In this document: piece after piece, positions 17,007 through 54,458 of the stretch
How positions within the stretch are numbered: position 1 is the first letter of the stretch
Layout of the letters: every line of letters starts with the position of its first letter
The notes under the pieces: model-generated
The model's database searches: none
Told to the model about the DNA's origin: nothing
The model's input: only the letters and a program-made list of their open reading frames with translations
Program-made: the position numbers and the translations under genes
Assembly: GCA_022784065.1 (NCBI GenBank)
Contig: JALFUO010000054.1
Location: 1 to 55,754, forward strand
Origin: Bacteroidales bacterium
Lineage (GTDB): Bacteria; Bacteroidota; Bacteroidia; Bacteroidales; Bacteroidaceae
Length of the DNA stretch: 55,754 bases
Direction: 5' to 3'

Positions 17007-17146
17007 CTAACCTGCTAACCACACTTATAGCAAGGTTCTTCATGTATTCTATCCAGCCTTCATTTTCACCAAGATATTTTTTATTTCCTCCGAGAAAATT
17101 TTTCCTATCCGCCTTATATTTTTCACTGTCTGCGCAGAAAAAGTTT

Positions 17147-17227
17147 GTTACAAAGTTTGTAATATGTATTACAAAGTTTCTAACATGTGTTACAAAGTTT
17201 GTAACGCTTGTTACAAACTTTGTAACA
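17147..17227. repeat. Four-unit GTTACAAA palindrome array, copy A
   Basis: Four palindromes of the form (G/A)TTACAAA(G/C)TTTGTAA(C/T) repeat every 20-22 bp; the second has TTTCTAA in place of TTTGTAA. The flanks carry TGCGCAGA on the left and ACTTTCAAGGAGAAAGGAAA on the right. Copies B (37338-37417) and C (42389-42468) have the same order and the same deviating unit. The array lies about 160 bp upstream of argR, between two repeats and the argR promoter. Confidence 0.88.
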
Positions 17228-17389
17228 AAAACTTTCTTATAGGATAATGAAAACTTTCAAGGAGAAAGGAAAAAATAGCTCCTTGAAAGCAAAAAATTGC
17301 TACTTTGAAATTTTCCGTATATGCGCATTTAATTGGAACAAAATTGTATATTTGCATTTCCATAACCAAGACAACCATCATCTAATACC

Positions 17390-37036: not shown

Positions 37037-37337
37037 TTTGATAGAGGGCGCGAGCGTGCGCCCGCGCGAAAAGTAAAGTTGCGTTTAGAATGTGATGGCA
37101 AAATTAGATATATGGAAAATATTGTGAGGAACGCTTTTCACGCATAAAGTTGCCATTTTTGCGCAAATGTCGCGGCAGCCGTCCGCGTTCCCGCCGCGTC
37201 TGCTTCCATTTACGGCCGTGTCTGCTTCCATTTCCCGCCGTGCGCATAGCGATTATCCCCGAGAAGTTTTTCCCTGTCTGCGCAGATAATTGTTAGGAGC
37301 TTGCTGATATTTTTTCCTTTCCTATAAGATGGTTTTT

Positions 37338-37417
37338 ATTACAAAGTTTGTAACGCGCGTTACAAACTTTGTAACATGTATTAGAAACTTTGTAATATGC
37401 GTTACAAACTTTGTAAT
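37338..37417. repeat. Four-unit GTTACAAA palindrome array, copy B
   Basis: Reverse orientation relative to copy A. It has four palindromes (ATTACAAAGTTTGTAAC, GTTACAAACTTTGTAAC, then TATTAGAAACTTTGTAAT with the same deviating base as copy A, then GTTACAAACTTTGTAAT) with 3-4 bp spacers. TCCTATAAGAT precedes it and TGCGCAGA follows. Confidence 0.88.
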
Positions 37418-37427
37418 AAACTTTTTC

Positions 37428-37520
37428 TGCGCAGAGAGTGAAAACTTTCAAGGGGAAAGGAAAAAATGTCTGCGCAGATAGTGAAAACTTTCAAGGAGAA
37501 AGGAAAAAATGTCTGCGCAG
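37428..37520. repeat. 43-bp tandem repeat, two copies plus a partial third
   Basis: Units begin TGCGCAGA(G/T)AGTGAAAACT and end GGAAAAAATGTC. Starts at 37428, 37471 and 37514 show an exact 43-bp period. The same sequence flanks array copy A once, so the duplication is local to copy B. Confidence 0.9.
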
Positions 37521-37560
37521 AGCGGTAAAAATAATTCATATAAAACCAACGTTTGTGCAA

Positions 37561-42174: not shown

Positions 42175-42284
42175 CCAATCATTTACCGGGCGTTTGTGCA
42201 AATTTGTTCGTATACATGCTCCTTTTCTTGACATTTTCTTTGACATTTTCGGATGCGCTCGGCATAGCCCGTTCCAAGCATCAC

Positions 42285-42368
42285 TATCCGCAAGATAATT
42301 TTCATTATCCGCAAGATATTTTTCATTATCCGCAAGATAATTTTCATTATCCGCAAGATAATTTTTCC
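42285..42368. repeat. 21-bp tandem repeat, four copies
   Basis: Unit TATCCGCAAGATAATTTTCA repeats with an exact 21-bp period (unit starts at 42285, 42306, 42327 and 42348). Each unit contains a TATC...GATA dyad. It joins element copy C to the GTTACAAA array copy C. Confidence 0.92.
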
Positions 42369-42388
42369 GCTCATATAAGGTAGTTTTT

Positions 42389-42468
42389 GTTACAAACTTT
42401 GTAACATATATTACAAACTTGCTAACATGCGTTACAAAGTTTGTAACATGTATTAGAAACTTTGTAAC
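42389..42468. repeat. Four-unit GTTACAAA palindrome array, copy C
   Basis: Palindromes GTTACAAACTTTGTAAC, TATTACAAACTTGCTAAC, GTTACAAAGTTTGTAAC and TATTAGAAACTTTGTAAC with 3-4 bp spacers. It is in the same orientation as copy B and is likewise followed by TGCGCAGA. Confidence 0.88.
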
Positions 42469-42587
42469 AAACTTTCTCTGCGCAGATGGTGAAAAATAGT
42501 CAGGAGCAAATAAAAAATATCTCCGTGAAAGGAAATTATTTCACGGAGATAATGCGAACGGTGTGCTATGAAAATTGAACGAAAATG

Positions 42588-52905: not shown

Positions 52906-53060
52906 AAAAAAATGTGATTATTGCAATTATCTTACTGCAAAGTTACGCTTTTTTATGTAAAGTCAGAACAAAGCAGGCGCAATATGATAGAATGATTGCG
53001 CCCCGCGCCGGCTTCGCGCCGCCACGCTCCTTGACAGCCGGCGGCACAGTATGGCAGATT

Positions 53061-53091
53061 TTTGGGGAAAGGGATAAAAGGCTTATCTTTG
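53061..53091 (+). promoter_or_regulatory. Orphan Bacteroidetes-type promoter
   Basis: TTTG, 19 nt and TATCTTTG, an exact consensus match. No credible protein gene lies downstream on this strand before oxyR's convergent 3' end; a hairpin terminator follows within about 40 bp. Confidence 0.75.
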
Positions 53092-53097
53092 CACAAG

Positions 53098-53142
53098 CAG
53101 GAAGAGGAAGGGCGCAAGCGCTTCCTCTTTTCGTGTTTTTTG
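53098..53142 (+). ncRNA. Possible very short transcript ending at a hairpin terminator
   Basis: Expected start about 7 nt after TATCTTTG. GAGGAAG/CTTCCTC arms (with an inner CGC/GCG) form a hairpin at about 53104-53128, followed by TTTCGTGTTTTTT. Promoter plus terminator would give a transcript of about 45 nt with no ORF. It might instead be a leader attenuator of something longer. No known RNA family is recognised. Confidence 0.4.
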
Positions 53143-53516
53143 GGGCAAACTATCCTATATGAACGGAAAAATTATCTTATATGACCGTGAAAATTATAAG
53201 CAAGACCGTAAAAATTTGCTCCTTGATAATTTACACTAAGTGCTTTATCCGAGAAATCTTCTTCAAAATCGTCAGAATGATTACGGAGCAAATTTCCTTT
53301 TTCTTAATTATCCCTAAAATTTTGTCCGGAATGGTCTTAACGATTGCAAACGCCAAAAGTAAGTCTCTGCGCAGGACGGAGCTCGGCATTAACAAGTTTT
53401 TGTTATCTATTTCGGAAACCACGAAACGTCTCATCATGCTCTTCAACGCGCGGGGGTGCAGCTGTTGGAAACGTACTATTTCCCGATTCGGCCAATGCAT
53501 ATAATATATCACAAGG

Positions 53517-53551
53517 ACACCGGGCAAAGGGTCAAATCCTTTGCTCGGTGT
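53517..53551 (-). terminator. Hairpin enclosing the oxyR stop codon
   Basis: Arms ACACCG(A/G)GCAAAGG and its complement form a 14-bp stem whose loop contains the oxyR TGA. There is no strong U-run on the minus strand. It could protect the 3' end or act in both directions. Confidence 0.6.
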
Positions 53552-54458
53552 TGTTCATTTTAAGCATTTCCTGGGGCACCGCCTTTCGCACGCTCTCGGC
53601 TAGGAGGCTGCGCAGGGCATAACGGACAAAGCCGGGTGCCGTGAGCAGCTGGATTTCGCGGGTGGGGATAGGTATGGCGAAGGGACGGACAAGCTGACGC
53701 TGGTCGGCAGTGAGCTGCAGCAATGCCAGTTCGGGGATAAACGTGACGCCCTGACCGCTCTCAACCATGCGCATAAAGGTTTCGATGCTGCCGAGGGTGT
53801 AGGCGCGCTTGCTCTGCCGGGCGGACTTGAGGTTGCAAAACTTGACGAGCTGGTCGCGGAAGCAGTGTCCCTCGTCCAAGAGCCACAGAGGCTCGTCCAC
53901 GAGGTCGGACGTCTTGATGCTGCTATGGTCGAAAAGCTGGTCGCCGCGCGAAACGTACGCCATGAACTGCTCGTAATAGAGCGTTTCGGCATCGAAGCCG
54001 GCGAGGTCGCCCGTTGCCACGAGTATGGCGGCATCGATTTTATGGCCAGCAAGGGCTTCTTTGAGCTGGACGGTTTTTAGTTCCGTGACACGCAGGTCGA
54101 GTTCGGGGTGGGTGGCGCAGAGTTTCGGGAAGAAGCGCGGCAACAGGTAAGGGGCAATAGTGGGAAGGATGCCCAGGCGGAACGTACCGCCCATTTCGCT
54201 GCGCTCCTCTGCCACGATGTGCCTGATGCTATCGGCGGCTAAAAGCGTTTCGCGCGCTTTGGCCACGATTTTCTTCCCCAGCTCGGTCGTGCTGACGGCG
54301 TGGGCGGTGCGCTCGAAAATCTTTGCGCCCAATTCCGTTTCGAGTTTCTGCACCATGGCACTGAGCGTAGGCTGCGACACGCGGCACTCGTCGGCCGCGC
54401 GCCCGAAGTGCTTGCATCTATCCACGGCAAGCACGTATTCAAGTTGCTGTAAAGTCAT
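53532..54458 (-). CDS. oxyR: OxyR, hydrogen-peroxide-responsive LysR-type regulator
   Basis: A 308-residue LysR-type transcription factor. HTH: HFGRAADECRVSQPTLSAMVQKLE (residues 17-40). The sensing pair is in place: GHCFRDQLVKFC puts cysteines at residues 199 and 208, identical to the E. coli numbering, with GHC-RDQ conserved. So it should be a thiol-disulfide peroxide sensor. No katA, ahpC or dps is adjacent; the divergent gene is the PTPS-like protein. The promoter on the minus strand is TTTG-N21-TAACTTTG. It is divergent, with 178 bp to 54637. Confidence 0.95.
   Translation of the reverse strand: MTLQQLEYVLAVDRCKHFGRAADECRVSQPTLSAMVQKLETELGAKIFERTAHAVSTTELGKKIVAKARETLLAADSIRHIVAEERSEMGGTFRLGILPTIAPYLLPRFFPKLCATHPELDLRVTELKTVQLKEALAGHKIDAAILVATGDLAGFDAETLYYEQFMAYVSRGDQLFDHSSIKTSDLVDEPLWLLDEGHCFRDQLVKFCNLKSARQSKRAYTLGSIETFMRMVESGQGVTFIPELALLQLTADQRQLVRPFAIPIPTREIQLLTAPGFVRYALRSLLAESVRKAVPQEMLKMNNTEQRI

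Follow-up and report, generated by a model that had tools for sequence, protein, structure and literature searches.

The window analysed here is a 55,754-nt stretch of contig JALFUO010000054.1 from a Bacteroidales bacterium (assembly GCA_022784065.1), whose draft genome has an estimated completeness of 85%. Near the end of the window lies a 370-bp intergenic element that opens with a promoter and a hairpin and continues into a short tandem array and a tail (Table 1); a transcript running on past the element would next meet oxyR, from its 3' end. The sequence TTTG-N19-TATCTTTG (53061-53091) agrees at every defined position with TTTG / TAnnTTTG, the sigma-ABfr consensus reported for Bacteroides, whose boxes lie near -33 and -7 (PMC7366714). 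The hairpin begins only 6 nt past the -7 box, and GTTTTTT stands directly 3' of it, such that a GC-containing hairpin is followed at once by a T-run, the arrangement of an intrinsic terminator. Transcription is predicted to start 3' of the -7 box, at about 53095-53098. A sequence-only reading of the window had described an exact promoter at 53061-53091 with a hairpin terminator within 10 bp, and both features lie where it placed them; it did not mention that the site is part of a dispersed repeat.

Table 1. Features of the element in the window (positions in the window)
Feature	Position	Strand	Remarks
Whole interspersed element, window copy	53031-53400	+	370 bp; other full copies 367-369 bp
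Conserved upstream block TTGaCAGCCnGcGGCACA...	53031-53057	+	5' edge of homology in all copies
-33 promoter box TTTG	53061-53064	+	box columns 96% identical in 9 copies
-7 promoter box TATCTTTG	53084-53091	+	19 nt after TTTG; box columns 96% identical
Terminator hairpin	53097-53134	+	17 pairing positions; arms 53097-53113 / 53118-53134, loop 53114-53117
T-run of intrinsic terminator	53136-53141	+	T-run columns 96% identical
22-bp tandem array, unit AACTATCYTATATGAGCGGAAA	53147-53197	+	TRF period 22; degenerate third unit follows
Tail inverted repeat AAATTTGCTCC / GGAGCAAATTT	53212-53222 / 53285-53295	+	11 pairs formed in 7 or more of the 8 copies; double changes absent
Tail block CTTAATTATCCCTAAA	53303-53318	+	direct half-sites YTTAA-N5-CCTAAA
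Tail block CTTAACGATTGCAAA	53336-53350	+	exactly 8 places in the genome, all full copies, no mismatches
Tail palindrome block CTCTGCGCAG	53365-53374	+	from the alignment of full copies

The RNA of 53096-53144 folds at -22.4 kcal/mol (z = -3.6), a value that none of 200 shuffles equalled. Both strands of the window together hold nine exact matches to TTTG-N19..21-TAnnTTTG versus 0.55 expected, and the promoter at 53061 is the only one of the nine with a terminator within 25 nt, a distance at which one was found for 41 of 3000 random window positions (1.4%). A generic sigma-70 and terminator scan of the window, the scope of which excludes Bacteroidota promoters, gave a terminator count equal to chance. 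Beyond the element, a strong terminator-like hairpin of 17 pairs at 53516-53552 overlaps the stop codon of oxyR and is predicted to stop both oxyR transcripts and any + strand RNA from the element.

An interspersed repeat in the window's genome

Searching the genome with 53040-53160 returned seven more places at 77-82% identity, and a search with another copy as query returned eight full copies and one partial. The full copies lie on contigs C34 (the window copy), C4, C61, C67, C97, C9, C32 and C71, and a leader-only copy that ends inside its first 22-bp unit lies on contig C84; all are intergenic. These counts are drawn from searches of the genome and from retrieved segments of it. The window copy is 74-79% identical to the other full copies, which align with sharp edges and a constant length of 367-370 bp, any pair differing by about 73 substitutions and only 1.7 indels. 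Across the nine leaders, identity is 96% in the -33 and -7 boxes as against 58% in the spacer between them (permutation p < 5e-5), 84-91% in the hairpin arms and 96% in the T-run; 94% of the hairpin pair cells are formed, with the loop and its adjoining nucleotides varying freely. Within these copies alone, three cells show a change in both partners, a number that shuffles also give; thus, the structural claim for the hairpin rests on the Segatella buccae copies described below. The upstream block at 53031-53057 may serve as an operator or UP region.

The conservation of array and tail is as strong as that of the leader. In the window copy, two full 22-bp units sit between leader and tail, and the array core motif AANTNTCNTATANGA matches 94 places in the genome versus 0 for a reversed control, most of them in other intergenic arrays. 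When the whole element was examined for a long-range RNA fold, the pairing of AAATTTGCTCC with GGAGCAAATTT and short chance helices were all that recurred beyond the terminator hairpin, and no clear compensatory support was found for such a fold outside the terminator. A 53-codon frame (MSGKIILYERENYKQ...) on the 22-bp repeat was considered as a small protein and rejected: it is open in four of eight copies, the other half showing loss of the start, a frameshift or a stop, and its synonymous fraction of 0.202 versus 0.197 expected indicates no codon-level selection. A known RNA family was likewise rejected, as Rfam gave no match at gathering score.

Terminal inverted repeats were not above shuffles in five of the eight full copies and gave only marginal scores in three, no target-site duplications were seen at the edges of the full copies, and neither an empty site nor a transposase came to light. 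Since neither terminal inverted repeats nor a transposase were found, it is the dispersal of the copies by itself that suggests mobility. A near-identical pair of copies in one genome of the same genus (G041) shares its flanking DNA too, as a segmental duplication would.

Recurrence of the leader in other genomes

A covariance model built from the nine leaders of the window's genome (R1) gave weak matches in 33 other genomes of the family, several of which consist of a promoter and then a hairpin; one of these genomes, G252, which we took as Segatella buccae ATCC 33574, had seven. A search with one S. buccae copy returned some 40 copies, and 42 S. buccae leaders align without gaps as TGTCA-N6-TTTC-N7-ATTTGCATT-N16-TATCTTTGCATNNGC-AAGGGAAGCRC-NNNN-GYGYTTCCCTTTTTT. 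Their hairpin has double changes in 7 of 11 stem pairs with 99.1% of cells paired, which 0 of 500 shuffles reach; this shuffle control is inflated by the kinship of the copies, but slid structures pair only 40-71% of cells. With genes called by simple ORF rules, 7 of 20 S. buccae copies have a downstream neighbour in the orientation of the leader, and 9 of the 20 lie between convergent genes, the 3' sides of genes being preferred. The S. buccae leaders (L187-L224) also carry the boxes TGTCA and TTTC at fixed spacing, about 46 and 36 nt upstream of the -7 box, and these possibly form an activator site.

A second model (R2), built solely from the 42 S. buccae leaders, recovered eight of the nine copies in the window's genome, among them the one in the window itself (53056-53133, E = 1.8e-3); in the same-genus genomes G003, G006, G041 and G047 it gave at least 12 matches apiece. 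On 295 sampled genomes of the order, it gave two single matches besides those in the window's genome. Counts of a leader-promoter pattern were 86 in G006, 36 in G041, 27 in G047, 14 in G003 and 5 in G043, with 0-1 in the remaining genomes of the genus and 0 everywhere for the reversed pattern; the window's own genome scores 0 because its -33 region reads TTTTGG. Altogether, 49 of 58 genomes of the genus had no match to the pattern, and as most species of the genus are without the leader, any function would be dispensable or clade-specific.

To avoid selection for hairpins, 40 loci were picked by the promoter pattern alone, 38 of which had enough downstream sequence. A strict terminator test was passed by 31 of these 38, as against 1.4% of random window positions, and most of the loci that failed show an evident but imperfect hairpin. 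The sequence of the hairpin differs between species, and the promoter is common to species whose arrays share nothing. The arrays that follow the terminator are palindromic and of species-specific sequence in all six species, with a period of 21 in G003, G006, G041 and G047 and of 22 or 44 in S. buccae and the window's genome, 21-22 bp being two helical turns. Bipartite tail blocks similar to CTTAATTATCCCTAAA occupy the same place in G047 (GTTAAACTTTCCTAAA), G003 (CTTAAATAAACTTAAA) and G006 (GTTAAATATGTTAAA). A full-length DNA match to the element was found in 0 of 57 genomes of the genus, and the exact hairpin pattern had no match in 84,980 species genomes or in viral contigs. A plasmid or phage origin was considered and dropped, there being no match among plasmids or phages. 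Several contigs of G006 break within or just after an element copy (L294, L295, L303 and L304), which is expected because an interspersed repeat defeats short-read assembly.

At the level of sequence, the comparisons demonstrate a repeat family, the conservation of its promoter and hairpin and its recurrence in other species; actual transcription, the efficiency of termination, protein binding and mobility we infer. We consider it probable that the site is the leader of a non-coding, MITE-like repeat with an internal minisatellite, in which the order of promoter, terminator, array and tail is kept by selection. A housekeeping-type Bacteroidota promoter would fire into an intrinsic terminator, and because the stem begins a few nucleotides past the start site, the product would be about 40-46 nt of RNA folded into a stable hairpin, with little or no transcription into the element or its neighbours. 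The very small RNA that the sequence-only reading had offered as one of two possibilities would fit such a promoter aimed into a terminator, both being conserved in nine copies here and dozens elsewhere. Since the hairpin, loop and array differ while promoter and termination persist, the selected trait would be initiation followed by immediate termination and not a particular RNA sequence. The array of 21-22-bp period would most likely provide binding sites for a DNA-binding protein, its A-rich spacers and boxes at every second helical turn resembling such sites. Selection would thus hold the architecture while the sequences of hairpin and array turn over between species, a turnover to be expected if the element is dispersed and lineage-specific and a host or transposition protein that recognises it evolves along with it; a binding protein evolving in this way would account for the species-specific arrays.

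The same conservation of promoter, start region and intrinsic terminator could mark a multicopy gene family of a trans-acting small RNA that base-pairs with mRNAs, as could the covarying hairpin of S. buccae and the dozens of copies in some species. We regard this as unlikely, however, because hardly any unpaired RNA is conserved given the variable loop and flanking nucleotides, because only the ability to terminate and not the hairpin sequence is kept across species, and because array and tail are as strongly conserved as the leader. Still less credible is an element acting purely as DNA, in which palindrome and array serve protein binding or transposition and the resemblance to a promoter is a by-product; the palindromic arrays with their period of two helical turns, and the preference for gene 3' sides with 9 of 20 S. 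buccae copies between convergent genes, agree with it, but the best conserved part is a pair of fixed-spacing -33 and -7 boxes around a drifting spacer, the T-run is kept on one side only, and species with unrelated arrays have the promoter in common. A regulated leader in which stress lifts termination and transcription continues into oxyR antisense, the other possibility put forward in the sequence-only reading, or into a downstream gene, is very improbable: oxyR is indeed the next gene along the promoter direction in the window copy, but the same leader adjoins unrelated genes in the eight other copies, the terminator is precisely what persists, its sequence altered by compensatory substitutions, no anti-terminator alternative fold is conserved, and another hairpin of terminator type, at 53516-53552, sits at the oxyR 3' end. 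With downstream genes co-oriented in just 7 of 20 S. buccae copies and convergent neighbours in 9 of 20, read-through regulation is unlikely as a general role.

Known elements and leaderless arrays

We would tentatively propose, as a possibility short of even chances, an undescribed class of interspersed Bacteroidaceae/Prevotellaceae elements that are set by their architecture and not by their sequence: a conserved promoter-terminator giving a tiny hairpin RNA at tens of loci, a species-renewed 21-22-bp palindromic array and a bipartite tail. Such a class would call for a protein, as yet unknown, that binds DNA or acts in transposition and evolves fast; the tiny RNA, or else the non-productive transcription itself, would have a part in the life cycle of the element. 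Decay of an old transposon does not readily explain a promoter that meets a terminator within about 40 nt and is retained in several species, in dozens of copies per genome, even as the sequence around it turns over. The element offers a direct test of whether mobile repeats in Bacteroidota of the gut and mouth depend on non-productive transcription or on a tiny RNA, and would explain repeated noncoding signals in these genomes that lie outside all Rfam families. A search of open-access papers on the theme found no description of a promoter-to-terminator leader.

Among described elements the closest is BrickBuilt of Porphyromonas gingivalis, an intergenic element made of a leader, 23-nt tandem repeats and a tail, with promoter activity in leader and tail (PMC4596501). 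Compared by description and not by direct sequence comparison, the two share a leader, tandem repeats of about 22-23 nt and a tail, a strictly intergenic position, confinement to one species group and a copy number of about 10-20. BrickBuilt differs in its organism, its longer arrays, its repeat of 23 nt as against 22 here, its 12-nt IS5-like terminal inverted repeats, which the present element is without, and a leader whose description mentions no promoter directed into a terminator; membership in BrickBuilt is thus matched by the leader-array-tail order and contradicted by the terminal inverted repeats and repeat length.

REP and REPIN elements with their RAYT transposases are likewise palindromic, short intergenic repeats of species-specific sequence, and BOX elements are built of modular repeat units. 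A link to a RAYT was rejected: the sole Y1_Tnp gene of the window's genome lies on contig C18, which has no copy of the element. Correia elements, which carry promoters, SPRITE elements, which have terminator-like hairpins, and BOX elements are likewise dispersed non-autonomous repeats, but a review of them (PMC10969869) describes none as a promoter directly paired with a terminator before a 21-22-bp array. Canonical intergenic small RNA genes of Bacteroides such as GibS also place a non-coding transcript between a promoter and an intrinsic terminator; GibS has a length of about 145 nt, a conserved 5' part and seed regions (PMC7366714), whereas the RNA predicted here is about 40-46 nt, nearly all hairpin and multicopy in a repeat.

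The 22-bp unit of the element is nearly absent from most other genomes of the genus, and is carried between other flanks by G009, G053 and G057 (20, 87 and 41 motif matches; loci L010, L019, L022 and L024 in G009, and L026-L043 mostly in G053), with TTGATAATCAGCAGTATA, for example, adjoining the G053 arrays. The window itself has further intergenic arrays without the promoter-terminator leader at 17140-17310, 37320-37522 and 42281-42469. These are of a different class, in which 21-bp palindromic units GTTACAAAGTTTGTAAC-N4 are joined to 21-22-bp units with the core TCTGCGCAGA, ATCTTGCGGATAATG or ATCTTATAGGA, and the window's genome holds dozens of such leaderless arrays.
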